Shown one piece after another: positions 4,020 through 29,280 of a DNA stretch of 43,034 bases. The position numbers and the translations under genes are program-made. The DNA comes from Calditrichota bacterium (GTDB taxonomy: Bacteria > Zhuqueibacterota > Zhuqueibacteria > Thermofontimicrobiales > Thermofontimicrobiaceae). The stretch spans positions 1 through 43,034 of the forward strand of contig JAADFU010000192.1 of NCBI GenBank assembly GCA_013152715.1, written 5' to 3'. Numbering within the stretch: the first letter of the stretch is position 1; each line of letters opens with the position of its first letter. Below the pieces are notes generated by a model. The model ran no database searches and had not been told where the DNA came from. It saw only the letters and a program-made list of their open reading frames with translations.

Positions 4020-5762
4020 TTATTTAAGCAAAGTCATCTTTCTGATGCTTTTGTATTCAGCGGCTGTAATCCGGTAAATATAAATTCCGTTCGGCACTTC
4101 TTTTCCCACATCATTTCTGGCGTCCCAAACTACCGAGTGCTCGCCGGCGTTTTGTTGTGAGTTCACCAGCGTTCTCACTTTTTCTCCGAGAAGATTGAAA
4201 ATTTCCAGTGTCACCTGGGTGCGTTCAGGAAGCACATAAGCAATTTTTGTCGTTGGGTTAAATGGATTCGGGTAGTTCTGAAAAAGCGAAAAAGTTCTAG
4301 GGTTTTTGACTCCATACTCTTGAACACCCGTTGCAGCAAGAATATCATTAGCATTTTGAATAACATTTGCTAATAAATCCATTTGATATTTGTGATTATG
4401 AAAGCCGCCGCTTTCGTCTCCTTCGACCAAAGCAAGATTGGTTTCCGCTTCAGCTAACTTGGCCTGCAGCGTGGCATCTGTGTTGCCTTCCATCTGGCTT
4501 GCTGCTAAGGCAAATTTTTGTTCAGCGCTATCCAGACGCGCTTCCGTCTCATCCTGATATGTTTGGATGTCTGATCGGGAAACGGTCGCGTCCTTGTCCT
4601 GATGACAGGCTTGACAGGAAACTGTCTCACTTCCGTTCTCCTCTGCCACAAATATTGACCAGCTATGACCATGATACATGGTTGAATTGCTTTCCTCAAC
4701 ATCGCTGGCGTACATGTGGCAGTCAGTACAAGTGACGCCGGACATGGTTTCGCTGAATTGAACGCCGGACGCGCCTATGCCTTTCAGAATATTATAGGAT
4801 AAATGATCCGTATCAGGAAATCTTAAATTTCCGTGACATTGCCCACACAATTTATCCGCGCTATCCATAGTCTCATATTCCTTGGTACTGGAATTAAAAT
4901 AAGAGACTTCGTTCGGTGTGTGTGGATTGTGGCAGGAAATACAAGAAACATCGGGCCACTCATCTTTATGAAGAGAAACCGTATTTGAAGAGAAAACACC
5001 ATTTTCTGTGGAAAAGAAATAGTCAAGTGCTTCTACCTCACTCATTTCTCCGTTGGCAAGAACAGCCGTGGGCCCATGGCAGGCAATACAATTTTCAGGA
5101 TCAGAGCCAGCAATAACCGAATCCGGTGATTCACCGGTACGTTCTTCGGCTAACTCATCAGCCACGTCATCCTGGGTTAGAGAATGTTTGCTCATGTCCC
5201 AGGCATTGTAGGTCAGATGGTCTGTCCCTTCAAAACGAATATTTCCGTGACAACGCCCGCATAAAGTCGCCACTTTGCCTATATCATCGTAGTTGGTAGT
5301 TGTGGAATTAAAATAGCCAAAAACTGGCATGGAAGCCGGATGATCTGTCGGAACATTGTGGCAGGTGGTACAATAAGTATGAGGCCAATTTGCTGTGTCA
5401 GCAGCAGTAGTAGATTCTGTAAACACACCGTTAGTCGTCGTGAAAAAATGCGCTAATGCCTCTGCTTCGGTCATTCCGCCGTTTTTTGTAACAGCTAAAG
5501 CTCCATGGCAAGCGATGCAATTTTCAGCATCCGAACCATACAATACAGTATCTGGTGATTGTCCGGTACGTTCTTCCGCCAATTCACCCGCAACGTCCAT
5601 TTGCGTGTCGGAATGGCTTCCGGCTAACCATTGTTGATAAATGGAATTATGACACAATTTACAATCCAAATTGGATTGCGAGAAAACCATCTGATTCGTT
5701 GCCATGATGAATAGCGTCATAGCAGCTAAAAAGATGATTGAACCGTAACGTTTAATTTTCAT
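4020..5762 (-). CDS. Nonahaem cytochrome c554-like protein with T9SS C-terminal sorting domain
   Basis: The start is set at the ATG at 5762, because a GGAGGT site lies eight bases upstream and a signal peptide follows directly; a longer frame to 5807 has no such signals. The product is 580 residues with nine CXXCH motifs. Two tandem units of about 130 residues each carry ELAEERTG, an ENCIACHG motif, a cytochrome CXXCH pair and a LCG[RQ]CHGN[IL]RF motif, pointing to an internal duplication. A helical segment rich in Ala and Glu follows the haem region. The last about 85 residues are a type IX secretion sorting domain (NYPNPFNPTTKIAYVLPE, then GIYIYRI and KM-L-K), so the protein is probably exported to the cell surface. 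Its family resembles cytochrome c554 and related tetrahaem folds. The role in surface redox reactions is inferred. Confidence 0.9.
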   Translation of the reverse strand: MKIKRYGSIIFLAAMTLFIMATNQMVFSQSNLDCKLCHNSIYQQWLAGSHSDTQMDVAGELAEERTGQSPDTVLYGSDAENCIACHGALAVTKNGGMTEAEALAHFFTTTNGVFTESTTAADTANWPHTYCTTCHNVPTDHPASMPVFGYFNSTTTNYDDIGKVATLCGRCHGNIRFEGTDHLTYNAWDMSKHSLTQDDVADELAEERTGESPDSVIAGSDPENCIACHGPTAVLANGEMSEVEALDYFFSTENGVFSSNTVSLHKDEWPDVSCISCHNPHTPNEVSYFNSSTKEYETMDSADKLCGQCHGNLRFPDTDHLSYNILKGIGASGVQFSETMSGVTCTDCHMYASDVEESNSTMYHGHSWSIFVAEENGSETVSCQACHQDKDATVSRSDIQTYQDETEARLDSAEQKFALAASQMEGNTDATLQAKLAEAETNLALVEGDESGGFHNHKYQMDLLANVIQNANDILAATGVQEYGVKNPRTFSLFQNYPNPFNPTTKIAYVLPERTQVTLEIFNLLGEKVRTLVNSQQNAGEHSVVWDARNDVGKEVPNGIYIYRITAAEYKSIRKMTLLK

Positions 5763-6261
5763 CTTTTGTAACCTCCAATGTTTTTGTTTAACTACGAATT
5801 GCGTCAATGATTTTTCTCGCCTTTTTGAAGCGTTTTGAAAATTTCGCTTTTGATGATTACTTTGTTATAAATTTATTCTTGCTTCCCATGATAAAATCTC
5901 CTTGATTTTAAGAGGTGCGGTGTGTTAATAGATAATTTTCTCAGCCCATTGATTCTCTCAATCTTTTTCCCAAAAAGCTTTAGAGGTAAAAATTTATTAT
6001 TCGCTAAAAGCTAAGTATAATCAATAATTGTACCAAAAATAACAATGGAATAAATACTTTTACGATTTACTAACTTAATAACTCTAATAAAAACAATGGA
6101 CAAAATTAAATTGACTAAATTAGCTTCCTAATGAAAAAAATGTTAGGGAGCCCATGCGTCAAGAATGTCACATTTAAAATTTTATAATCACAACTAACTC
6201 ATTGAAAATATTATAAGATAATCATTGTAGAGCAAATTTCTTTCAATGGGACATCAATGAC
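5763..6261. other. 500-base AT-rich intergenic region
   Basis: No coding frame is supported here. It holds the leader and promoter region of the T9SS-tagged cytochrome and the 3' flank of the sigma-54 regulator. The only recognisable site is the candidate -24/-12 element at 6020-6036. The pentamer CATTG and its complement recur around 6200-6250, but no clear operator was found. Confidence 0.6.
6020..6036 (-). promoter_or_regulatory. Candidate sigma-54 promoter for the T9SS-tagged cytochrome
   Basis: On the minus strand the bases read TTGGTACAATTATTGAT. The -24 box matches TTGG-AC and the -12 box reads TTGAT, with correct spacing, but GA replaces the usual GC. The predicted transcript would start near 6010 and carry a leader of about 250 bases. 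The neighbouring sigma-54 regulator gene (6262-7668) makes such a promoter plausible. The long leader and AT-rich context lower confidence. Confidence 0.35.
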
Positions 6262-12743: not shown

Positions 12744-13439
12744 ATGGACAGTTTCACTTATGTGGACATATTCGCGACAAAAGGAATCGAATACCTGTTG
12801 GTCATCGGTTTTCTCATCGCTTTAATTTTTTTCTGGCGAGTTTTGAATAAAACGAACCAACCCGCCCGCGCTGCTTTTCGGCAAAAAGACTCGATCCGGG
12901 TGAACGGAGGATTTCAAATCGCTCTGGGAAGATTTTACCATCAAGGGCACAGCTGGGTGCAGCCGGTTGGCGGCGACGTCGTGACTATCGGAATCAATGA
13001 TTTTGCTCACAAATTCCTGGGAACCCCCAAAGCCGTTACACTTCCGGCTATCGGCTCCAAAATAAAGCAAGGAAAAGCCGCCTGGAAGCTTCAGATTGGC
13101 TCGACGAGTGTGGACATGATTGCTCCGATAGATGGCGAAATCATTGACGTGAATGAAAAATTACTTCAATCGCCTGAAGTTCTGCAAGAAGATCCATACG
13201 AAAAGGGCTGGTTTCTGAAAGCAAAAGTAACAAATTGGAAATCAAACATCAGCAATCTTCTTTCCGATAAACTGGCGCTGGCATGGATGGACCTCACTTC
13301 CCAAAAACTTCAGGAAAAATTAGCGGGGAATCTGGGCTTTGTGCTTCAAGACGGAGGCGCACCCATTACCGGATTTGCGCTGCAAACCTGGCCCAAGGAA
13401 TGGAAAGAAATTGCCAAAGAATTTTTGCTAACATCTTAA
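12744..13439 (+). CDS. Membrane-anchored GcvH-like protein without the lipoyl lysine (copy 1)
   Basis: A 231-residue protein with one N-terminal membrane helix (about 18-36) and a domain with the glycine-cleavage H-protein pattern (about 58-165): HSWVQ, TIGINDFAHKFLG, LPAIGSKIKQGKAAW, IAPIDGEIIDVNEKL and EDPYEKGWFL. In true GcvH a lysine eight residues before the AP of this region carries lipoate. Here the segment reads LQIGSTSVDMIAP, with no lysine, so lipoylation as in GcvH is unlikely. A C-terminal region ends with a DGG motif (LQDGGAPITGF) shared with the other two copies. GGAGGTG five bases upstream supports the start. Its presence in a quinone/ferredoxin operon suggests a structural or redox-linked role that I cannot define. 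Confidence 0.82.
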   Translation: MDSFTYVDIFATKGIEYLLVIGFLIALIFFWRVLNKTNQPARAAFRQKDSIRVNGGFQIALGRFYHQGHSWVQPVGGDVVTIGINDFAHKFLGTPKAVTLPAIGSKIKQGKAAWKLQIGSTSVDMIAPIDGEIIDVNEKLLQSPEVLQEDPYEKGWFLKAKVTNWKSNISNLLSDKLALAWMDLTSQKLQEKLAGNLGFVLQDGGAPITGFALQTWPKEWKEIAKEFLLTS

Positions 13440-14469: not shown

Positions 14470-15246
14470 ATGACAGCCTCAAAACAAAATTCATCATGGG
14501 AAATAAGGAAACGAAGCAACCAGGTTTGCGAATGGGTCAAAGCCGGCATTCTGACCTACAAATTATGTGACAGAAAATTTGATTGTGAAAACTGTCCTCT
14601 TGACAAAATCCTGCGCGGCGAAACTAACCTTCAGGTGAACGGCCGCTTGAATCTGTTCAATTATTTCAGTTCATTGCGGCATTTGCTCAAAATCAAAGCC
14701 GACGAAAGATTTTACATCAGTCCCAAGCATTCCTGGATAAAAGTCGATAATAGCCATCACGTCAAAATCGGCTTCGACGATATCATCGCGATTGTGTTGG
14801 GTTCAATTGAGGCAGTAATTTTGCCGGCAATTGGGGAAAAAATAGAAAAAGGAAAATCTTGCTGTCAAATAATACAGGACGAATTCGTATTTTCATTGCC
14901 AGCGCCGCTCTCCGGAAAGGTTGTGGAAGTGAACCAGGATTTGAAAAGCTTCCCGAATGAGGCTACTTTGGATCCGCTCAATAAAGGCTGGCTGTTAAAA
15001 ATTTCTCCAACGGATCTGTCCCAGCATTTGGAAGAATGCCGGACCGGCGAGAATTTATTGAATTGGTATTTGCAAGAGATAAACTGGGTGGAGCAAAAAT
15101 TGGAATTTATTATGCACAAAAAAAGCTTGAAAATTGGCGCAACAATGGCGGACGGGGGAGAGCTTTCCCGTGAAATCCGCCGCTCTGTGAGCGCAAATGA
15201 TTACCGCTTTCTGGTAAATTATCTTTTGGGAAACCCCTATTATTAG
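14470..15246 (+). CDS. Soluble GcvH-like protein with an N-terminal four-cysteine motif (copy 2)
   Basis: A 258-residue protein without signal peptide or membrane helix. Its N-terminus has four cysteines, C20, C33, C39 and C42, in the pattern CEWVKAGILTYKLC followed by DCENCPLD, which looks like a metal or iron-sulfur site. The GcvH-like domain follows (about 80-185): HSWIKV, IGFDDIIAIVLG, LPAIGEKIEKGKSC, LPAPLSGKVVEVN and LDPLNKGWLLKI. The position of the lipoyl lysine is Glu in the segment QDEFVFSLPAP. The C-terminal DGG motif (TMADGGELS) is shared with the other copies. GAGGT upstream supports the ATG. The next GcvH-like gene starts 50 bases after its stop, so the two form an operon behind the promoter at 14411. 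Confidence 0.82.
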   Translation: MTASKQNSSWEIRKRSNQVCEWVKAGILTYKLCDRKFDCENCPLDKILRGETNLQVNGRLNLFNYFSSLRHLLKIKADERFYISPKHSWIKVDNSHHVKIGFDDIIAIVLGSIEAVILPAIGEKIEKGKSCCQIIQDEFVFSLPAPLSGKVVEVNQDLKSFPNEATLDPLNKGWLLKISPTDLSQHLEECRTGENLLNWYLQEINWVEQKLEFIMHKKSLKIGATMADGGELSREIRRSVSANDYRFLVNYLLGNPYY

Positions 15247-15296
15247 AATTTTCGCGAGCAAACCCGAATAAATATTATGTGAAGGAGGTGTTCATC

Positions 15297-15977
15297 ATGA
15301 CAGTCATAATGGTAGCTCTGACATTTGTCGCATTCATCGTAGCGGGAATCATCGTCGACAAAATTCGCAAACGACAGGCTGCGCCGCTGAAAGCAAAAAC
15401 AGCGCCAGCAGCGTCCTTTCAGATTAAACCCGAGGACTTAGTCGTTCCCATGGGACTGTTCTTTTATCGCGGACATACGTGGGCGAAAGTCGAACCCAAC
15501 GGTGAGATTAAAATTGGCATTAGCGATTTTGCCCAGAGGATGTTCAAAAAGATCGATTCTGTGGAAGTCGGCGAAGTTGGCGCGAAAGTGATGCAAGGCG
15601 ATAAAACCATCGCCATTAAGCAAGGAAATCGTGAAGTGCAGCTCAGCGCGCCCGTTTCCGGTGAAATTCAAGCCATCAATCGCCAAGCGCTGGAAAATCC
15701 GGATGCCCTCAAATCTGATCCTTACGGAAAAGGTTGGCTGCTCTCTATTAAGCCTGGCAAACTGATGCAGGACATCCGTTATCTCAGAATCTCGCAGGAC
15801 GCCCGTCTCTGGATGAATGACCAAGTCGAGAGGTTGAAAGATTTTTTAATGCGGGAATTTTCCAACGGCCGCGTTCTGCCGAACACCATGGCCGACGGCG
15901 GCATTCCGGTCGATGGCATCAGTGAATTTCTCGATGAGGATTCCTGGGAGCGAGCCAAAGAAACTTTTCTCATCTGA
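15297..15977 (+). CDS. Membrane-anchored GcvH-like protein (copy 3)
   Basis: The ATG at 15297 is the likely start, because the AAGGAGGTG ribosome binding site lies six bases before it; an upstream GTG at 15279 overlaps that site. The product has 226 residues: one N-terminal helix (about 3-20) followed by DKIRKR, then a GcvH-like domain (about 48-155) with GHTWAKV, IGISDFAQRMF, VGAKVMQGDK, LSAPVSGEIQAIN and SDPYGKGWLLSI. The lipoyl lysine position is Asn in QGNREVQLSAP, so it is probably not lipoylated there. The C-terminus carries TMADGGIPVDGI, the shared DGG motif. A strong hairpin lies 24 bases after the stop. Confidence 0.82.
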   Translation: MTVIMVALTFVAFIVAGIIVDKIRKRQAAPLKAKTAPAASFQIKPEDLVVPMGLFFYRGHTWAKVEPNGEIKIGISDFAQRMFKKIDSVEVGEVGAKVMQGDKTIAIKQGNREVQLSAPVSGEIQAINRQALENPDALKSDPYGKGWLLSIKPGKLMQDIRYLRISQDARLWMNDQVERLKDFLMREFSNGRVLPNTMADGGIPVDGISEFLDEDSWERAKETFLI

Positions 15978-16000: not shown

Positions 16001-16049
16001 AACAGCATTTCATTAAATTCGCACTCCTCGGAATTAGTGAAATGCTGTT
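16001..16049. terminator. Bidirectional terminator between convergent genes
   Basis: A 12-base perfect inverted repeat (AACAGCATTTCA at 16001-16012 with its complement at 16038-16049) is extended by an imperfect inner stem ending in AATTC/GAATT. It serves the GcvH-like gene on the plus strand. It also contains the last codons of the archaemetzincin gene on the minus strand. Confidence 0.75.
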
Positions 16050-16594
16050 TTATCATATCCGATTTTTTGGCGAACAACAGCCTCGCACTCGCGGCAGAAG
16101 ATTGCGGATTTTTCATCGATGTCTTCAACATAAGTTGAAAAGTTCATCGCACAGCCGGGATGCGAACAATGCGTCAACCCGAATGTATGTCCCAACTCGT
16201 GAGTCGCCTCTTTGGCGAGCCGTTCGCTTAATAGAGCGGAATTTTTTCTCCCGCCATAAAACTCGTTTCTCAAACGATTCGTAGAAACGATGGCGCCGAT
16301 GCCGTCCAATTGCGCCTCGCCGAAGACGTAGGTAAAAATTGGAATAAAAAGGTCAAAATCACACAAGCCAAGAATTTTGCAATCGCCGCTGTCAGGCGGG
16401 TCGTCAATGAGTTGAGAAAGTAAAATTGAGGAATTGTATTGCCGACGCGAGCGGCTAAAAGCTTCCTCAACTATAATTTTTTTTTGCCGCACCTCCACTT
16501 GCAAATGGAATGTGTGGGACAGATAAAAAATCAACGAATCCAATAGTTTGGTTTCTGCAAATTCTATCGGGATCAGGCATATACTTCGGATCAT
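16034..16594 (-). CDS. amzA: Archaemetzincin-type zinc metalloprotease
   Basis: A 186-residue protein with the archaemetzincin signature: the zinc site HELGHTFGLTHC, followed by HPGCAMNFS and a downstream FCRECE, which together hold the catalytic zinc and a second structural zinc through four cysteines. The length is normal for the family. Its start lies four bases after the stop of the sigma-54 regulator, so it is co-transcribed with kinase and regulator. No signal peptide is seen, so it is probably cytosolic. Physiological substrates are poorly known. Its place in a two-component operon suggests a link to redox signalling or cofactor turnover, but this is a guess. Confidence 0.9.
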   Translation of the reverse strand: MIRSICLIPIEFAETKLLDSLIFYLSHTFHLQVEVRQKKIIVEEAFSRSRRQYNSSILLSQLIDDPPDSGDCKILGLCDFDLFIPIFTYVFGEAQLDGIGAIVSTNRLRNEFYGGRKNSALLSERLAKEATHELGHTFGLTHCSHPGCAMNFSTYVEDIDEKSAIFCRECEAVVRQKIGYDKTAFH

Positions 16595-19801: not shown

Positions 19802-21736
19802 TTATTTCCCTTCTTTGATGGCGCGGTCAAAATCCAGCGGATGTTCCTCGCGATAATCATCTTCATCCATTTTGCCAGTGAGGCACGTCGTATTCATGGG
19901 ATAGACATGCGGGTCAAAAAATTGAAAATAGAAATGCCACACCAAAATAGCCAGCGACGCCAGAATCGCCTCGTAATAGTGAATCACCAAACTCATATCG
20001 ATGAACCATTTTGGTAAAAATCTCAGGGAAATATTTTCAAACCACATGATTAATCCGGTAATAGCCATCACCGCGGTTCCCCAAATCAAAGCGAGATACT
20101 CCGCTTTTTCTATATAGCTATATCTTTCGAAGCGAGGCCTTTCATTTGCAAAGCCCAGATAATATTTCAGCATGTGTACCACGTCTTTCGCATCTTTAGC
20201 TGTGGGCAAGAAAGCGAGTATTTGTTGCCTACCGCGTTTTGTAGAAATAATATAATAAAGATGATAAAATGAAAGAGATAGCATTACTACCGCCGCCAGA
20301 CGATGCACGAAACCGCGAAATGCAAATCCGCCTTCCCAGTCCAACAGCGGACGCGCCCACCAGGCTTCAGGAAATTTCATGCAAAATCCCGTGTAAGCTA
20401 AGGTAATAAAGCTCGCCATGAGCGCGAAATGTTGAACTCGCTCGTTCACTGTCAGCCGTTCAATCTGTCTTCTGAAGGTGGGGTCATAAGCTATTTTTTC
20501 CGGCGGATTCTTGAATTTCGCGCGAAGCTTTTTCAAAAAATCCAAACCGTTGTGCGCCGCCATACCGCCGATAGTGCCAAAAATAAGGAAATAATACAGA
20601 ATGGTCACATAATAAATCGCCTTACTGCTTTCGCGACTGGGAGTGTAATGCACTTTCCCGACGGTGACTTTGTTGGAAGCGCCAGGATGACATTTGCCGC
20701 ATGTTTTCGCCAGATTAGCCGCGTTAATTGTGGACAAGGGATCATCTGAACTGCGGATATTATGCACGCCGTGGCAACTGGCGCAATTTGCCGCAACAAG
20801 AACGCCGCCGCGAATCATGAGTCCGTGATAGCTATCATCGTAAGTTTGAACGACTCCTTTTTTTATGCCATATTTTGTAGCAATTCTTTTCCCTTCATGG
20901 CATCTCGGGCATAAAGTTTTTGAGACCACGGCACTGTAAACAGTCGAAGTGGGGTCTGAAGGCGCTTTGATATCGTGTTCCGAATGGCAATCAGTACAGA
21001 CCGGAGCGTCTGTGGCTCCGAACGAAATTGCCCGGCCATGCACACTTCCCATGTATTCCTGATAAATATCATCGTGGCATTTGGAACAAGTCTTCGGAAC
21101 ATTGAATTTATTTGTCAAAGAATTGGCATCATTCGAGGGCAAAATATTATGTCCGCCGTGGCAGCTATGGCAAGTGGCCGCGTTAAGATTTCCCTCTTTT
21201 TTCGCCTTCTGGAAATGAATGCTTGTTTCAAAAGCTTCTACAGCGGTTGAAATCGGAATGTGATATTTCCGATTAATTTTTGGATCCGCATGACATTTGG
21301 CGCAGGTCGCCGGCTCATTCAAAACAAACAATGTAGATAGCGAATCGTCCGTAGGATACACATAATGAGAACCATGGCAATCCCAACATTGTGGCGCTTC
21401 AGCGGCTCCTTTCGCCAAAAGTTTTCCATGGACGCTATTTGCGTATTCTGCCGCCGCATCATCGTGGCATTCGCTGCATTTTACGCGCTGCAAATTTTCA
21501 TCATGAGGCAGATCCTTAATATCAACATGGCAATCAATACATTCAAGATCGCCGTGTACTGAATTAGAAAATTTGCTCATGTCAATAAAAACTGAAATCT
21601 CAACGGAATCATTTACCGTTTTTGTCAATTCTTGATCACCATGGCATTCCATACAATCTTTGCTGGTAATGTCCTGGCTCCACACAATCGAACTACTCAT
21701 CAGAATGAATAAAACAACTCCGGCCCAACGAACCAT
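19802..21736 (-). CDS. Undecahaem c / b-type cytochrome fusion, inner-membrane quinol oxidoreductase
   Basis: A 644-residue protein. A signal peptide (cleavage near IVWSQ) is followed by about 370 periplasmic residues with eleven CXXCH motifs, from CMECH and CIDCH through CASCH and CGKCH. Repeated units contain SVHG and CxDCHGxH. The C-terminal part has about five membrane helices with histidines placed as in HydC/FdnI-type b cytochromes (for example FVHRLAAVV and VIHYYEAI). The plan matches CbcL-like proteins, in which a b-type module oxidises menaquinol and a multihaem domain passes electrons to the periplasm. It is the last gene of the minus-strand electron-transfer cluster, 200 bases after the tetrahaem gene, so it could also have its own promoter. 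AGGAAGGG precedes the ATG. Confidence 0.9.
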   Translation of the reverse strand: MVRWAGVVLFILMSSSIVWSQDITSKDCMECHGDQELTKTVNDSVEISVFIDMSKFSNSVHGDLECIDCHVDIKDLPHDENLQRVKCSECHDDAAAEYANSVHGKLLAKGAAEAPQCWDCHGSHYVYPTDDSLSTLFVLNEPATCAKCHADPKINRKYHIPISTAVEAFETSIHFQKAKKEGNLNAATCHSCHGGHNILPSNDANSLTNKFNVPKTCSKCHDDIYQEYMGSVHGRAISFGATDAPVCTDCHSEHDIKAPSDPTSTVYSAVVSKTLCPRCHEGKRIATKYGIKKGVVQTYDDSYHGLMIRGGVLVAANCASCHGVHNIRSSDDPLSTINAANLAKTCGKCHPGASNKVTVGKVHYTPSRESSKAIYYVTILYYFLIFGTIGGMAAHNGLDFLKKLRAKFKNPPEKIAYDPTFRRQIERLTVNERVQHFALMASFITLAYTGFCMKFPEAWWARPLLDWEGGFAFRGFVHRLAAVVMLSLSFYHLYYIISTKRGRQQILAFLPTAKDAKDVVHMLKYYLGFANERPRFERYSYIEKAEYLALIWGTAVMAITGLIMWFENISLRFLPKWFIDMSLVIHYYEAILASLAILVWHFYFQFFDPHVYPMNTTCLTGKMDEDDYREEHPLDFDRAIKEGK

Positions 21737-21936: not shown

Positions 21937-22353
21937 TTAAAACGGGACACTCCCTGCCTGGTGACAATCATAACAGGACACGTCGCTCTTGCCGCCGGTC
22001 AAATCTGAACCGTGGCAGGACCTGCAGAATGAAATGGCATTGCTGTTATTGGCAATATATGCCGCATGATTTTTTTCGTTATCCACCAAAATCCAACTGG
22101 CGGGATGCGGATAAGTCTGATGGCACTGAAAACAACTAAGCCCGGTTTTGCCGCCATTCAAATCAGCGCCATGACATGCTTTACACGATGTATAACCGCT
22201 TTCTAACACTTTTGTTCCATGAAAATTTTCAGCGTCCGCCGTATTCCAACCTTCAGGATGAGCGGTACTGGGCAACGGATTTTTATCAGTTGAACATTGC
22301 CACATCAACAAGCCAAAAAGCACAATCAGGCCGAGAATAAATATTTTTTTCAT
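21937..22353 (-). CDS. Tetrahaem cytochrome, probable lipoprotein
   Basis: A 138-residue protein with a hydrophobic signal and a cysteine at residue 20 (LLMWQC), a lipobox with unusual Trp and Gln before the Cys. Four CXXCH motifs are arranged as two repeats of about 50 residues, each with a CHGADL/CHGSDL GGK unit followed by a second motif: CKACH and CFQCH, then CRSCH and CYDCH. AGAGGT precedes the ATG. It lies 34 bases after the dodecahaem gene. Its size and repeat suggest a small electron shuttle or a surface-exposed terminal haem protein of the conduit; which side of the outer membrane it sits on cannot be told. Confidence 0.88.
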   Translation of the reverse strand: MKKIFILGLIVLFGLLMWQCSTDKNPLPSTAHPEGWNTADAENFHGTKVLESGYTSCKACHGADLNGGKTGLSCFQCHQTYPHPASWILVDNEKNHAAYIANNSNAISFCRSCHGSDLTGGKSDVSCYDCHQAGSVPF

Positions 22354-22387: not shown

Positions 22388-23263
22388 TTACTTATGGCAA
22401 ACCACACATACAGGTTCACTCTGCGCATCTGAATGGCAGCTCAAACAGGAATCTAAATCCAACTGCGCGGCTCGTGCATGAGCGCCGCCAGTCGTGGTGT
22501 TACTCCAATTGGCAAACGAATGATTCCGCGGGATGACCATTCTTCTCTGGTGACAGTCCACGCAAAATGCCTGTTCTTCGTGGCAAGTATAACAATTTTC
22601 CTTGTTTCCTTTGGCGTACAAACCGTGATTGTTCACAAAATTCAAAGGATGTACCTGCCTGTCCAGATTGTCCGATTTGTGGCAGTCGAGGCAATAGGCC
22701 TTTGTGTGGCAAGTTTCACAGGAGCTTTCGTCCGCTTCGGCGGTGATGCCGTGGCTCGATTTCCAGGCAAAATCGTGCGTCGCCGGTTTCAACTGATCTT
22801 TTTTCGCATGGCAATCATAGCAATAGTCATCCCGAGCAATCTCTTTGTGACATTCGACGCACACAGTCATTTTGGGCAGATGTTTTTCCAGAATATTCTC
22901 GCTGCCGACCACATTTTCATGGCATTTCTCACAGGGGATATTTTTTGCCACGTGTTTGTCGTGCGGGAATTTTGCGATGTAATCGGTGATTCTCGGATAA
23001 TCGATGGCATTGTCCGGATCTTTGTGACATTTGCTGCATTCCTCATCTTCGTCATGACAGGAATAGCAGGCATCCATATCCGGCAGCAAATTATCCGACG
23101 CCTTGGCGCTTTCGCTCGCTTTGTGACAATCGCTACAAGATGCGCCTACTTCTTCGGCGTGATATTTGTGCGAAAAAATAAGCTCCACATCCTGCGCCAC
23201 TAACAAGACGCTGATAAACGCGAGAAAAATCAATGCGACAATTACAATAACGGTTTTTTTCAT
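22388..23263 (-). CDS. Dodecahaem periplasmic cytochrome c
   Basis: A 291-residue exported cytochrome with a signal peptide (about 1-23, ending LLVAQ). It has twelve CXXCH motifs, CSDCH through CVVCH, one haem per about 22 residues, a density typical of haem wires. Histidines such as those in FSHKYH, FPHDKH and HSF provide possible distal ligands. It starts 11 bases after the beta-barrel gene (GAGGAAAT before the ATG). In porin-cytochrome conduits a periplasmic multihaem protein plugs the barrel from inside; its place directly next to the barrel gene suggests this job. No membrane anchor is seen, so it may be soluble or barrel-bound. Confidence 0.92.
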   Translation of the reverse strand: MKKTVIVIVALIFLAFISVLLVAQDVELIFSHKYHAEEVGASCSDCHKASESAKASDNLLPDMDACYSCHDEDEECSKCHKDPDNAIDYPRITDYIAKFPHDKHVAKNIPCEKCHENVVGSENILEKHLPKMTVCVECHKEIARDDYCYDCHAKKDQLKPATHDFAWKSSHGITAEADESSCETCHTKAYCLDCHKSDNLDRQVHPLNFVNNHGLYAKGNKENCYTCHEEQAFCVDCHQRRMVIPRNHSFANWSNTTTGGAHARAAQLDLDSCLSCHSDAQSEPVCVVCHK

Positions 23264-23274
23264 AACAATTTCCT

Positions 23275-24468
23275 CTACCAGCTAAAATGGATGTGATTTA
23301 ACACACGGGAATCGCTCTCTTTGAAGCGATTTGTCAACCATTGGTATTCCAGATCAACAGACCAATATTTTTTAAATTTATAAGATAACCGAACAGCATT
23401 GGCGATTTGATTTTCAAATTCATAAACTTTTTCCGTTCTGTAGCGCGAATAATCGACATTCAAGGATGCCAACAGACTCGGCGTAATCGAATAGGCGTAA
23501 TCCAGCACCACGCCGATCTGATCGCCGGCATAGCCTGACTCGTACACCAGACCTACGCTGCCGTTCAGATTGCTCACTGTGAAAAACAGACGATTGGCGG
23601 TTTCGGTGTCAAATTGGATCAATTGATATTGGCAATTCATAAAATAATCGCCTTTCAGCCGATAGCTGCCTCCCAGTCGATATTGCCAGTACGGATCGAT
23701 TTCAAAAATCGTGAAAAAAGAATTAGCGTAAACCTGCGGATATTGATTCTTCACACCGAAATTCAGATACAGATTTTTCAATAAATGATGCCGGGCGTTG
23801 AAATAAAGGCGATGAAAACGGGCATTTTGCAGGTCGTAGTGAGTTTGCACCTGAACCTGAGTTTTGGGAATCAATGAAGTGCTGAAATTGACACCGGCAA
23901 TCTGCCAGAAAATATCTTCGCTGTTCATTTTTTGCAAATAAAGCAATTGTAAATGAGAAGAAAAAATCTTTCTCAAGTCAATCACGCCACCGGCTGTAAA
24001 ACTATCGTCAAATTTGTAAATTTTAAAACTCCGATTGAATTGAGATTCCACGCCGGCGTAAAGGGAAAGGGACAAATGGTTTACAATCCGGGCTCGCGCA
24101 AAAAGTCCGTCCAGCCCGCCTAAAACAGTCCCTGGATGAAGAAATTGACGCCCGATGATAACATCAAACCGATTCAGCACTTTTTTGAATTCCAGATTCA
24201 ATTGATAGGCGCGAAATCGCATGTCGCTGTCCAGCGTCTGGTTGAAATCTGTGAGCGCACGAAAAGAAGCGTTCAACGTCGCATTTGCCAATTCCGGCGA
24301 ATTCAAATTAAAGCGGACAAGTTGGTACATGCGCGTATGAGTCGTGGTATCCTCATAGCTATAAAAGGAGTTTGATGCTCTGCCGTGGAACTGAATTCCG
24401 ATAGCGTCAACTTGAGAGTTGAACATTACGAAAAAAACCAGCACCCAAATTTTTGTTATTCTTTTCAT
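23275..24468 (-). CDS. Outer-membrane beta-barrel protein, candidate conduit porin
   Basis: A 397-residue protein with a signal peptide (ending near VDA) and no haem motif. The sequence alternates polar and aromatic or hydrophobic residues in strands of about ten separated by turns (for example SFRALTDF, YLNFGVKNQY, YRLGGSYRLKGDYFMNCQYQ) and ends in ...HIHFSW, the terminal aromatic residue expected of a barrel. The length would suit a barrel of about 20 strands, though I have not predicted them. It is flanked by a rhodanese lipoprotein and a dodecahaem cytochrome, the setting of porin-cytochrome conduits such as Geobacter ExtI. Unlike MtrB it has no N-terminal CXXC. The conduit role is inferred from context. 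Confidence 0.82.
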   Translation of the reverse strand: MKRITKIWVLVFFVMFNSQVDAIGIQFHGRASNSFYSYEDTTTHTRMYQLVRFNLNSPELANATLNASFRALTDFNQTLDSDMRFRAYQLNLEFKKVLNRFDVIIGRQFLHPGTVLGGLDGLFARARIVNHLSLSLYAGVESQFNRSFKIYKFDDSFTAGGVIDLRKIFSSHLQLLYLQKMNSEDIFWQIAGVNFSTSLIPKTQVQVQTHYDLQNARFHRLYFNARHHLLKNLYLNFGVKNQYPQVYANSFFTIFEIDPYWQYRLGGSYRLKGDYFMNCQYQLIQFDTETANRLFFTVSNLNGSVGLVYESGYAGDQIGVVLDYAYSITPSLLASLNVDYSRYRTEKVYEFENQIANAVRLSYKFKKYWSVDLEYQWLTNRFKESDSRVLNHIHFSW

Positions 24469-24557: not shown

Positions 24558-25562
24558 TTATGGTTTTTCCAAAATAGCATCATAAATTCCCGGCTGGGGA
24601 GGTCCGGCATATTTATGTGCGGCTAACTTTGAATAAGCAAACCCATTGAAACCATAAAGCAAACTTTTTACATCGTAGCCCAATATTTTCAGATAAGTTG
24701 ATACCTGAGCGGATGTCTGACCTGTATAGCAATACACTACAACAGTCTTATTCGTCGGCAGCAGATTTAATTTCGCATCGGTTTTTAAAGATGTATTTGG
24801 TGTAAACTGATAAGCGCCGGGAATATGTCCGGGATTCAGGTACTCATTTTCAGGCCAATAATTAACAATAAAATAATTGCCTGTATTGTCCCACACATCG
24901 TCAGCACTAATTTTTGGCCATCCCGGAGCAATAACTTCTTTAAACCGAGCTTTAATGATCGCTTCTGCTTCGGTCTCACCAGTATTCAATTCCGGAAAAT
25001 CATAAGTCGTTGTGGTCGTATTCGCTGTAGTTTCCAGATCATTAAAATGCTCATCCGAGGCTACCTGGCCCATCCACTGATGCGAATTGGAAATGCTTGT
25101 GTCCACAGCACACATTCCGAACAGCAAGTTTTGTGCGTCGTAGCCCAGCAAATTCAACACAGCAGTCGCCACACTTGCAGTCTGGCCTGTGTAACAAATA
25201 TTCAAAATGACCTTATCTTTGGGAATAGTGCCATCATCCACTTTGTCCACAAGATCGCCTAATGCCATATTCATTGCGCCTTTAATATGGCCGCTGGCAA
25301 AATCTGTTGCGGAACGATAGTCAATGATGAACGGATCATTCGCTGTATTGCCGTCTGTAAGCACATCATAAACTGCTGAAATAGCAGTATTTACCGGCAA
25401 GCCGCTCGGTGTGGTGTAATTTGAGAAATAGGTGTCACCCTTTTCTGCGACAAGAGCAAACTCATCAACTTCTTCCGGTTCCGTTCCATTGTCTTTGTCG
25501 CATCCAAGAATGATAACTAATGCGAGCATGAGCACGAGAAAGATTGTTAAATACCTTTTCAT
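24558..25562 (-). CDS. Double-rhodanese lipoprotein
   Basis: A 334-residue protein with a clear lipoprotein signal (lipobox IILGC, Cys21). Two rhodanese-like domains follow, about 45-160 and 195-325. Each has the active-site loop CYTGQT (around residues 123 and 278) and the paired motifs IIDYRSATDFASGHIKGA and IVNYWPENEYLNPGHIPGA. Both catalytic cysteines are present, so sulfur transfer or persulfide chemistry is possible. GGAGGT lies six bases before the ATG. It lies between the multihaem selenoprotein candidate and the barrel gene. A rhodanese-family lipoprotein (ExtH, from memory) accompanies the barrel in the Geobacter sulfurreducens ExtHIJKL conduit, so it is probably a true conduit component and not a passenger. 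Confidence 0.9.
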   Translation of the reverse strand: MKRYLTIFLVLMLALVIILGCDKDNGTEPEEVDEFALVAEKGDTYFSNYTTPSGLPVNTAISAVYDVLTDGNTANDPFIIDYRSATDFASGHIKGAMNMALGDLVDKVDDGTIPKDKVILNICYTGQTASVATAVLNLLGYDAQNLLFGMCAVDTSISNSHQWMGQVASDEHFNDLETTANTTTTTYDFPELNTGETEAEAIIKARFKEVIAPGWPKISADDVWDNTGNYFIVNYWPENEYLNPGHIPGAYQFTPNTSLKTDAKLNLLPTNKTVVVYCYTGQTSAQVSTYLKILGYDVKSLLYGFNGFAYSKLAAHKYAGPPQPGIYDAILEKP

Positions 25563-25604: not shown

Positions 25605-26939
25605 TTAAAACGAACTTGGTGGAATTTTGTCATCCATTACAATATCTTTGTTTGCGTCGACTTCATAATCAAACAGGTCTGTAGTCAACAAATAATATTC
25701 TTTCGTCGTGTGACATTTTAAATAACAACTTCCATTAGTACCGGTCGTATCGGTTTGCGCCGTCCACCGCTGAATATTGTGCGGCGTGGTGTATTTCCAG
25801 GTCGGTTCGCTGTTGAAATTCGGCAAATCAGCGATCCCCCAACTGGCGTAAGTGTCCGGGGCAACCGGAATGTGACGCACTGTCACATAGTCATATTCAG
25901 CGTTCTCCGCCCGAATATTGAATTTATTTTTGGCAATTTTAAATGCAATATAAGAGTTGCCGGTAATTCCCGCGCCGCCGGTGTGGCAGGCATTGCAATT
26001 TTTATAAGGCTGAGCGTGACAAATCTGGCAGGAAAGCGTGGCGCCGGCAAGACCTTTCCAGTGCATTTGATGATAGATATTGGCATCCAGTTTATCTTCA
26101 TGACAACTTTCGCAGCGCGGTGCGTTTTGAACCAGATAGCGATAGTCCGCAGCGCCAGCGTCGCCATGCATCTCATTTTCGGTGTGGCAAAAAGTACATT
26201 TCGAACCGCCGGGTTTGTAGCGATGCACATCAGCGAAATAGCCTTCGCGCTGACCCAGATATTCTTCGCCGACACGGCTTCCGTGGCAAGCAACGCAGTT
26301 ATTGTCCCGCTCGGGCTCGCTGAAAACATGGCCGCTGGTAAAACCACCCTTTACAGAAATCGGTCGCTGGACATGACACTGACCGCAAGTACCGTGGCAT
26401 TTTCCGCACTCGGCTTTAAATTTGCCCATCATCGTCGCGTCATTTTCAATACTGTAGCCAAGACGATTTTCAATTCTCTTCAGATAACCCGACTGTGTTT
26501 TGTGCAGCGACGGGCTGTATTGATTAACGATATCTTCATGGCAGCCAGAGCAATAGGCCGTTGCTTTGTCGCTGGGCACAGCCACAATATTTTGATGAGC
26601 AGAATCTTTATCAAACGCCGTTTTATCGCCACCGTGACAAACGACACAACCAATTCGTCCGTGGGGCGTGCTGAGAAAATCTTCTTCGACATTAACCATT
26701 TCCCATGCCTCTAACTGAGGCACAGAGCCGCCTCAGCCTTCGCCCGAATCACCACTCTCCGGTGGCAATGGCGTCGCAACCTCTTTCAACAGCGACGAGT
26801 TCAAATGGCAGTAAGTGCAACTGGACTCTTTTGAAGCAAACTGGCTGGACGTCGGCTGATATTTATCCGTACAGCCGCTGCCAATGAGCAAGAAGAGGAA
26901 TAACAAAAAAATGCCATAAAGAAATATTTTGGATGTCAT
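25605..26939 (-). CDS. Multihaem lipoprotein cytochrome read through an in-frame UGA, probable selenoprotein
   Basis: One continuous frame of 444 codons is interrupted only by TGA at 26733-26735 (residue 69). The first part has a lipoprotein-like signal (Cys23 in SGC), a CTYCH haem motif and a Gly-rich stretch (ESGDSGEG). After the UGA come GGSVPQLEAWEMV and nine more CXXCH motifs (CVVCH, CSGCH, CGKCH, CGQCH, CVACH, CTFCH, CESCH, CQICH, CNACH) plus CYLKCH, a CX3CH variant. The part after the UGA alone (from GTG at 26723) would have no signal peptide, so its haems could not be attached in the periplasm. A hairpin directly after the UGA fits bacterial SECIS elements, which favours selenocysteine over a nonsense mutation. 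The start overlaps the stop of the TPR gene by four bases. Confidence 0.8.
26702..26726 (-). promoter_or_regulatory. SECIS-like hairpin for selenocysteine insertion
   Basis: On the minus-strand RNA, UGA is followed by GGCGGC and then a stem of up to ten pairs. The core is GUGCCUC, loop AGUUA, GAGGCAU (seven pairs, one G-U), extended by three more pairs (UCU with GGG, two of them G-U). The loop starts 16 bases after the UGA, is five bases long and has G in its second position. These fit the described bacterial SECIS rules (loop of 3-14 bases, G among its first two bases, 16-37 bases from the UGA). It has no T run and lies inside the coding frame, so it is not a terminator. Confidence 0.75.
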
Positions 26940-27397
26940 TTGTTCCCCTTTAATCCGTTTGATATTAAGTAAGAAGTTAAATAATCAATTATCTCATTAA
27001 TCGTTTCATCTTTAGGCGCAGATTTCTGGTATTCTCTGAAATAGCCATACGATTTTTCCACATCACAATAAAGCCAGAGAATAGCGAGTTTTATCAAATA
27101 TTCTTTGGAATCACTGATATTTTTGAACCGCTCCTCAAAATCGTAAACCAGTTCCGGACACGGACAATCATCAAGCAAAGGGTCTGTCTCGACAATGCAA
27201 TCAATATCGTTCTCATGGACAAGGCTCACAAGAAGTTGTAGCGCGCGTTCCAGATTGCCTTCCTGTACATGGCAAACGATGAGCTTTTTGCGAATCGCCT
27301 TGCTCCTCGGATTCTTCTCCAAAATGTCATCCAATTCTCTCGCTGCCAGAGCATACCTTCTGGCTAAAAAATATTGATTTCCTAACATCTCAGACAT
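26936..27397 (-). CDS. TPR-like protein, first gene of the electron-transfer operon
   Basis: The start is set at the ATG at 27397, with GGGAG upstream; a TTG at 27424 would overlap the promoter. The product is 153 residues with no signal peptide or haem motif. Residues about 6-60 have TPR-like helix pairs (ARRYALAARELDDILEKNPR, then GNLERALQLLVSLV). A DDCPCPEL stretch follows and the rest is helical. It may help assemble or deliver the cytochromes, or act on the UGA-containing mRNA next to it, but no function can be assigned. Its stop overlaps the start of the cytochrome gene (ATGA), so translation is coupled. Confidence 0.75.
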   Translation of the reverse strand: MSEMLGNQYFLARRYALAARELDDILEKNPRSKAIRKKLIVCHVQEGNLERALQLLVSLVHENDIDCIVETDPLLDDCPCPELVYDFEERFKNISDSKEYLIKLAILWLYCDVEKSYGYFREYQKSAPKDETINEIIDYLTSYLISNGLKGNK

Positions 27398-27429
27398 TCT
27401 TTTCTCCCAGCTATTAAGGTTCAATGTTT

Positions 27430-27600: not shown

Positions 27601-28926
27601 CTATTGAGGAAGATTGATCTGTTTCATTTTTCGCCACAGTGTGCTGCGGCTGATACCCAATTCCTGGGCAACGCGCGTTTTATTCCATTTATGTCTTTCC
27701 AGCAATTTTAAAATAAGCGAACACTCCTCCGATTCCAAACAGGACGCATACTGAGCACGCACAGAAGATACGCCGCTACGAACAGACAGTGGTAATTTGC
27801 TCAACGCTATTGTCGAACTGTCGCGAGTGCGGACAAAGGCATACTCCAGCGCATTTTCCAACTCGCGAATATTGCCGGGCCAGGTGTATTCGACTAATAA
27901 TTCCAATGCCGGGTCTTCGATATCGTTCATCTTTTTTCCATAAATCAAAGAGAACTTTCTTAAAAAATGTTTCACCAAATAAGGCACATCTTCGGGTCTT
28001 TCCCGCAACGGCGGCACAGAAATAGGGATCACATTCAGGCGATAGAACAAATCTTCGCGAAACTCCCCGTTTCTGATTGAATCCACCAAATTTTTATTGG
28101 TCGCCGCAATCACGCGCACATCCACGGTTCGGCTTTTCGATTCGCCGACGCGTTCAAAAGCGCCCTCTTGCAAAACACGGAGAAGTTGAAGCTGCATTTG
28201 CACTGGCATCTCGCCGACTTCATCCAAAAAAATCGTGCCTCCATTTGCGAGCTCAAAACGCCCTTCTCGGTCGCGAATAGCGCCGGTAAAGGCGCCTTTT
28301 ACATGACCGAAAAGCTCACTCGCCAGCAACTGCCGCGAAAAAACCGAGCAGTTGACTTTCACAAATGGTTTGTCTTTGCGTTGGCTTGTCGCCTGAATCG
28401 CATTGGCAACCATCTCTTTTCCGGTTCCGGACTCCCCTTGAATCAGAACCGACGCATCAGAATCGGAAATCTCGTCAATGAGCTCAAAAATTTCATGCAT
28501 CGCTTTGCTGTACCCGACGATACCTTGAAACTGAAATCGCCGCGTATGTTTTTCTCGAAACATTACTAAATCCGAGACGTCCCGAAAAGAGATGACGCCC
28601 CCAAGCGGTTCGCCCTCGGAATTGCGCAAAATTGCGACATTCATTTTTACGGGGATCATCTTCCCTGCTTTATCTCTCATTTTTGAATCCAAGTCGTAAA
28701 TATTCTTTCCCGATTCCAGCACTTGCGCAATCGGACATTGAATAAAACATAAATTAGACTTGAAAATATGCTTACAAAATTTGCCGAGGACTTCGGAACG
28801 ATTCATTCCGGTAATTTCTTCTGCCGCTCTGTTGAAATAATTTATTTTAAAATCTGCATCAACAGTAAAAAGCCCTTCGGCAATGGAATCCAATATGTCA
28901 TGAGTCAGTTCTTGATCAGTTGGCAT
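27601..28926 (-). CDS. PAS-domain sigma-54 activator
   Basis: The ATG at 28926 (with AGGGTG upstream) is preferred over the longer frame to 28965. The 441-residue product has an N-terminal PAS domain (about 5-115) instead of a receiver. It holds three cysteines, C51, C60 and C64 (FCKHIFKSNLCFIQCP), a pattern suited to metal, haem or redox sensing. The AAA+ domain (about 130-365) has GESGTGKE, the GAFTGA loop and RLNVIPISVPPLRERPED. A Fis-type helix-turn-helix ends the protein (NKTRVAQELGISRSTLWRKM). No kinase gene is adjacent, so it probably senses a signal directly in the cytosol. The palindromes and -24/-12 element next to its 3' end point to the electron-transfer operon as its target. Confidence 0.93.
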   Translation of the reverse strand: MPTDQELTHDILDSIAEGLFTVDADFKINYFNRAAEEITGMNRSEVLGKFCKHIFKSNLCFIQCPIAQVLESGKNIYDLDSKMRDKAGKMIPVKMNVAILRNSEGEPLGGVISFRDVSDLVMFREKHTRRFQFQGIVGYSKAMHEIFELIDEISDSDASVLIQGESGTGKEMVANAIQATSQRKDKPFVKVNCSVFSRQLLASELFGHVKGAFTGAIRDREGRFELANGGTIFLDEVGEMPVQMQLQLLRVLQEGAFERVGESKSRTVDVRVIAATNKNLVDSIRNGEFREDLFYRLNVIPISVPPLRERPEDVPYLVKHFLRKFSLIYGKKMNDIEDPALELLVEYTWPGNIRELENALEYAFVRTRDSSTIALSKLPLSVRSGVSSVRAQYASCLESEECSLILKLLERHKWNKTRVAQELGISRSTLWRKMKQINLPQ

Positions 28927-29280
28927 TTTCACCCTTTCTCGTTTCATTTGCTGAAAATGAAACAATTCGTTCTAAAAGATAATAACTTTTCTCAAAAAGT
29001 CAAGCGAAATCCACTGGCATTACCCGGGAAATGATTGAATTGGCAGCAAACTCACTGTTGCTCCGGCATATAAACTTCGTTGGGAAATAATAAATCCTTT
29101 GCACGATAAAAAACAACATGAAAATCATTTAAAAAAAATCACACTATCGTCGTGCCGCAAAAAAACCAACCGGGCGTTATCGTAATAGTTACTATTTTTG
29201 CAATCGGTGGTTGTAGAATTATTTTGTCAATAATCATTTTGTCATTTTTTTACAACTGACAGAACAGTTGCCTTCTGTTC
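28927..29280. other. Intergenic region with a secondary hairpin, no gene seen
   Basis: AT-rich and without a supported coding frame. It should hold the promoter of the PAS/sigma-54 activator. A six-pair inverted repeat (GAACAG at 29262-29267 with CTGTTC at 29275-29280) lies just beyond the terminator of the dikinase gene and may be a second, weaker stop signal. Confidence 0.5.

Follow-up and report, generated by a model that had tools for sequence, protein, structure and literature searches.

Multihaem cytochromes are usually drawn as wires; to our knowledge very few are thought to carry selenocysteine (Sec), and the role of the residue is unknown. In Wolinella, the extracytoplasmic rhodanese Sud passes polysulfide sulfur to the respiratory polysulfide reductase Psr, a molybdenum enzyme. 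An inventory of prokaryotic selenoproteins dated 2026, with 119 families and subfamilies, has as its multihaem cytochrome entries ExtKL and the octaheme tetrathionate reductase family, for which Sec-containing members are listed (PMC13188914). ExtKL of Geobacter has an in-frame UGA, and Sec is predicted at this site (PMC1914089, PMC6148476). It features five CXXCH motifs at the N-terminus, followed by a part without known relatives; the UGA is located at the ExtK/ExtL junction, and its discoverers did not detect a SECIS (PMC1914089). The ExtKL gene cluster also encodes an extracellular rhodanese lipoprotein and an outer-membrane porin (PMC6148476, PMC5877670). A different rhodanese-like protein, a non-orthologous replacement, is found in 10 of 18 ext clusters (PMC6148476), and the porin affects the reduction of selenite and tellurite (PMC5877670).

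The locus described here is found in a window of 43,034 nucleotides, the whole stretch of DNA analysed, which is contig JAADFU010000192.1 of a Calditrichota bacterium (assembly GCA_013152715.1). A cytochrome gene on the minus strand (positions 25605-26939), assigned to our conserved family A1 and to Pfam Cytochrome_C7, encodes 444 residues if a UGA is read through, and is terminated by TAA. Its only in-frame TGA is found at residue 69 (26735-26733, minus strand), in the context GEG-U-GGSVPQ. Translation bears out the frame and coordinates given in an earlier reading made from the sequence alone (hereafter the sequence-only reading). The same reading assigned ten haem motifs to the body that follows the TGA. 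This count holds only if a terminal CX3CH (CYLKCH, residues 405-410) is included, as the protein has ten CXXCH motifs, one N-terminal and nine C-terminal to the TGA. The N-terminus is lipoprotein-like, while the downstream body by itself lacks a signal peptide. An annotation terminating at the UGA drops both the signal peptide and the first haem, a mis-annotation that probably affects such genes in many uncultured bacteria. Residue 69 is located in a Gly/Pro-rich linker between haem motifs 1 and 2, and the suggestion that it could be a haem ligand found no support. The linker has no nearby cysteine, and a resolving thiol, if any, would thus come from a partner. The predicted structure, which does not include haems, is of moderate confidence (pLDDT 71.8), and a fold search with this model gave no significant match.

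The cytochrome resembles ExtKL in being a multihaem c-type protein with one in-frame UGA, whose gene is clustered with those of a rhodanese lipoprotein and a barrel, the latter only putative here. The two differ in the place of the predicted Sec, which here lies between the first two of at least ten haems, and in the clear covarying hairpin that follows it here. The ExtKL model NF040886 (cut-off 250 bits) did not match the window protein, nor any of 26 family members. The sequence-only reading had pointed to ExtKL: the in-frame UGA of ExtKL is real, but the absence of a model match and the different architecture (one CXXCH before the UGA, nine after) rule out membership. No ExtKL was found by searching 290 related genomes, a search in which controls gave no match either and which therefore carries no weight. 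A very distant homology cannot be excluded, as ExtKL sequences were not directly compared. The octaheme family (TIGR04315; PDB 1sp3) is similarly multihaem with some Sec members. Between the A1 profile and 1sp3 there is a match over positions 162-294 (2.4e-6), but ten or eleven haem motifs are present here, and the Sec linker is, as far as known, absent there. The TIGR04315 model matched weakly one of the 26 members (9.6e-4) and did not match the window protein. Similarity to ExtM/ExtN and DmsE-type cytochromes is weak and limited to the haem-rich body. The ExtM model (cut-off 800 bits) matches 19 of the 26 members, at best with 2.1e-10, and the DmsE family 16, but scores are far below the curated cut-offs, and haem-motif similarity is expected among such proteins. 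Neither multihaem entry of the 119-family inventory (PMC13188914) fits the cytochrome family, which is absent from it. The family looks like an undescribed selenoprotein family that would work like the ExtH-ExtKL pair without detectable membership, within the limited literature covered. It adds to the known ones an apparently undescribed type of Sec-cytochrome with a clear SECIS-like element. The inventoried 'GUxG' family NF049953 (a 172-position model) was also considered, and discarded because it gave only weak, sub-cut-off matches elsewhere in the genomes.

Homologues were collected from 99 related genomes and from a second collection, and the set was then extended by profile search. The closest belong to the same genus and the most distant to other phyla, with identity down to about 30-40%. 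Public records include two homologues of candidate division KSB1, and the nearest is 90% identical. By reading each locus, TGA was found at the aligned position in 30 homologues, from many genera and several phyla, within a motif fitting G-x-G/S-U-G/A-G/A. Such retention goes far beyond what chance would give. Neither TAA nor TAG was found at this site among the homologues read. Cysteine, the replacement that the sequence-only reading had proposed to look for, is encoded in two genomes of one genus (TGC in G038, TGT in G060). One gene has Leu (CTG) and one Arg (CGG), and the whole linker is missing in three homologues. The family thus satisfies the criterion for bacterial selenoproteins that UGA be the only stop at a conserved site, with sense codons in some homologues; a different stop, or no aligned Cys or Sec, would have refuted the initial proposal. 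The idea that the TGA arose from faulty sequencing or assembly, or marks a decaying gene, has nothing in its favour except the stop codon itself. Error is excluded because the TGA recurs in independent genomes, being common to 30 homologues of independent assemblies, and Sec machinery and a SECIS-like element are present; we give this explanation practically no weight. Most of the genomes compared are drafts. Other genes carrying the GEGUGG DNA motif in relatives were inspected and rejected, as their frames look fortuitous and share neither a downstream hairpin nor the cytochrome context.

The UGA could alternatively be a true stop separating two products, a short one-haem lipoprotein and a cytochrome started at the GTG at 26723. 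Many annotation programs would call the genes in this way, and GAGG-like bases are found upstream of this GTG. The codon is not conserved, however, being replaced in homologues by GTC, GCG, CCA and others, and re-initiation at this position is rejected on this ground. The Cys, Leu and Arg versions are moreover one continuous frame, the body alone would have no signal peptide, and covariation and codon constraint are found exactly where a SECIS is expected. We regard the two-product reading as very improbable.

Bacterial recoding of UGA to Sec depends on SelB and on a SECIS, a hairpin located directly 3' of the codon. The sequence-only reading had proposed to look for such an element, and a hairpin was found. 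The SECIS-like element spans positions 26705-26735 on the minus strand, UGA included, with a 5' arm at 26723-26717, a loop at 26716-26712 and a 3' arm at 26711-26705. The seven-pair stem starts nine bases 3' of the TGA, and the five-base loop has conserved G and T residues. A bacterial SECIS should be a conserved hairpin immediately after the UGA whose small apical loop contains a G, and this requirement is fulfilled. The 42 bases from the TGA on are aligned without gaps in 29 genes. In this alignment pairing holds in 90.6% of the cells, and all seven stem pairs show at least one compensatory change. Double-change cells are 16 in the stem vs 2.0 in shuffles, none of 500 shuffles being as high, and shifting the stem arms by 1-3 columns abolishes the covariation signal. 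The stem is largely rewritten in some distant members, as in L089 (GTCGGG/CCCGGC), L041 (TCCCTC/GAGGGA) and L096 (TTCCGTC/GGCGGAA). Over the ten codons that follow the UGA, synonymous identity reaches 2.06 times the expectation (mean over the gene 1.09, sd 0.18), and the segments of the gene scoring highest for silent constraint all fall in this region. By inspection, the hairpin is lost in the Leu and Arg versions. Against a codon null encoding the same peptide, the hairpin energy is lower in 28 of 28 genes, with a mean z of -1.87, but single genes are often not significant, and the SECIS argument is therefore carried by the covariation and codon-constraint tests. The hairpin matched none of the Rfam SECIS families. 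Recoding of the UGA by SelB through the hairpin directly downstream is supported by these comparisons, and has not been demonstrated by chemistry.

The four genes selA, selB, selC and selD, whose presence in the same genome had been proposed as a check, have all been identified, the genome having been searched family by family. SelA and SelB adjoin on one contig of the source genome; SelD is present in this genome as well. The tRNA-Sec gene (L001:853-949, plus strand) scores 67 bits, and was called by ARAGORN as tRNA-SeC with anticodon TCA. A survey of KSB1 reported selABD, and selC as absent from the phylum (PMC9012183); the tRNA-SeC gene of the source genome is at variance with this survey. 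SelB was found in 20 of the 24 genomes carrying the cytochrome. It was not found in the other four: two of these host TGA versions and are incomplete (73% and 56% complete), the third has a linker-deleted version, and the fourth a Cys version. Formate dehydrogenase, sought in the source genome as a positive-control selenoprotein, gave no full-length match. Cys homologues, Sec machinery and covarying hairpin all support the proposal that residue 69 is selenocysteine, which we hold to be almost certain, on comparison only: neither selenium nor the full-length protein has been measured.

The cytochrome gene is part of a set of genes all transcribed from the minus strand. A TPR protein (26936-27424, Pfam TPR_19) overlaps the start of the cytochrome gene, and a sigma-54-type activator with GESGTGKE and GAFTGA motifs (27601-28965) is located further upstream; in other loci, orthologues of the TPR protein are found at the same place, and those of the activator upstream. 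Downstream are encoded a lipoprotein-like, exported rhodanese with two domains, each with a CYTGQ active-site loop (24558-25562; Pfam Rhodanese 4e-24, in two stretches), a putative outer-membrane beta-barrel (23275-24468), an exported cytochrome with 12 CXXCH (22388-23263) and a lipoprotein-like cytochrome with 4 CXXCH (21937-22353). The two cytochromes were identified by motif count and conserved position, the former also by Pfam. The barrel is inferred from sequence, has no family match in Pfam or NCBIfam, and has syntenic orthologues in 13 other loci, both Sec and non-Sec. Next comes a fusion of an 11-CXXCH cytochrome with a membrane domain of cytochrome b561 type (19802-21736; Pfam Ni_hydr_CYTB 6.9e-16 and Cytochrome_C7, motif count), a possible quinol-side entry of electrons, by inference. 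The order activator, TPR, Sec cytochrome, rhodanese, barrel, 12-haem and 4-haem cytochrome is recurrent in many members. It fits an outer-membrane porin-cytochrome conduit, but the barrel is only inferred, and location across the membrane is unproved.

The rhodanese, on which the sequence-only reading was silent, is the best functional clue. A rhodanese-domain profile was run on the sequence downstream of the cytochrome loci. A rhodanese gene is directly downstream in all the 29 TGA versions with enough contig (23 plus 5 loci, and the window); the thirtieth (G050) was left out because located at a contig edge. In contrast, none of the seven non-Sec versions with context has an intact rhodanese. 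Five lack any (G066, G070 copy a, G013, G018, G386). Both Cys loci carry only remnants: in G038 a 78-residue C-terminal piece survives, and the gene of G060 has an internal deletion and a change of frame. Five non-Sec loci have retained the barrel; it is therefore the rhodanese specifically that was lost. Genome G070 has two paralogues, a Sec copy (L099) with a single-domain rhodanese and a Leu copy (L100) without rhodanese. The Fisher probability of 29/29 vs 0/7 is about 1e-7 if loci are independent. Since related genomes are not, the changes between Sec and non-Sec on the maximum-likelihood tree, of which there are at least four, are the safer count. The rhodanese subfamily varies beside Sec versions, from two-domain sulfurtransferases (L092, L095, L096) to the single-domain type of L099, and this exchange is echoed by the replacement of rhodaneses in ext clusters. 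Sec and rhodanese are probably linked in function, a link resting on their association. In two loci the downstream rhodanese frames have four domains rather than two, as if duplicated inside a single gene (L090:9409-11455 and L094:7792-10249, in cytochrome orientation).

Comparison supports the export signal, the haem motifs, Sec, the SECIS and the pairing with rhodanese, and from these the chemistry is inferred. In the mechanism that we favour, the exported rhodanese would carry a persulfide, or perselenide, on its catalytic Cys and exchange it with the selenol of Sec, which would ride on the flexible Gly/Pro-rich arm between haem motifs 1 and 2. Electrons would be supplied or removed by the haem chain, together with the putative barrel and the adjacent cytochromes of 12 and 4 haems. 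Acting in the periplasm or at the cell surface, the system would serve as a terminal reductase (or oxidase), with sulfane sulfur, polysulfide or selenite as substrate. The analogy to Sud and Psr is functional only, and implies no membership, since the partner is here a Sec multihaem cytochrome. Synthesis of Sec is cytoplasmic, which makes the exported rhodanese unlikely as a supplier of selenium for it.

Sec may alternatively be there to tune a nearby haem or to act as an anchor in a protein whose main role is that of a wire within a porin-cytochrome conduit to metals or electrodes, the rhodanese being a mere operon companion. The many haems, the putative barrel and the further cytochromes of the cluster are all in line with a conduit, and a metal-reducing one also fits the gene context. 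In Geobacter, moreover, extHIJKL has a part in the reduction of Fe(III) and Mn(IV) (PMC6148476). Against this reading, the rhodanese tracks Sec and not the barrel, which non-Sec loci keep while dropping rhodanese, and rhodaneses of different subfamilies occupy the same slot. Sec is, besides, in a flexible linker and not at a conserved ligand position. We deem the wire reading rather improbable.

If Sec and rhodanese are instead partners, their substrate may be selenite or tellurite, reduced or detoxified as proposed for the Geobacter ext cluster, and it is because of the analogy with this cluster that such a role is retained. An ExtI knockout is poor at reducing selenite and tellurite (PMC5877670), and formation of perselenide by rhodanese is possible (PMC5877670 and its reference 88). 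Beside the cytochrome, however, no arsenic, selenium or tellurium genes have been identified, and seleno-oxyanions are scarce relative to sulfur species in sediments, from which several of the genomes, by inference, probably originate. We see this role as unlikely, though less so than the wire. Sulfane sulfur is favoured for its abundance, and a sulfane-sulfur or polysulfide chemistry, rather than one of Se, Te or metals, has in our estimate a little under an even chance, substrate and direction of electrons being open. More tentative still, and perhaps one chance in three, is the full picture: a widespread selenoenzyme, a haem-driven, molybdenum-free surface reductase of sulfane sulfur (polysulfide, elemental sulfur or selenite) in which an exported rhodanese would load a swinging Sec arm with a persulfide or perselenide, arisen independently of, and in parallel to, Geobacter ExtH-ExtKL. 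The strict link to rhodanese makes the question of why selenium is found in a cytochrome testable, in terms of sulfur or selenium atom transfer.

Some other genes of the window deserve mention. Positions 4020-5807 (minus strand) encode a cytochrome with nine CXXCH motifs, a Por secretion tail and a FlgD_ig domain. An orthologue of it is found in the place of rhodanese beside the Leu and Arg versions (L100, L101), as if one outer partner had replaced another. Three GCV_H-domain proteins (12744-13439, 14470-15246 and 15279-15977, plus strand) are encoded beside 4Fe-4S/NrfD genes. The position of the GcvH lipoyl-lysine reads IGSTSVDM, IIQDEFVF and IKQGNREV in the three, and the lysine seems absent. 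The short protein encoded at 16034-16594 (minus strand) features HELGHTFGLTHCSHPGCAMNF, a sequence resembling the metalloprotease motif of the archaemetzincin type.
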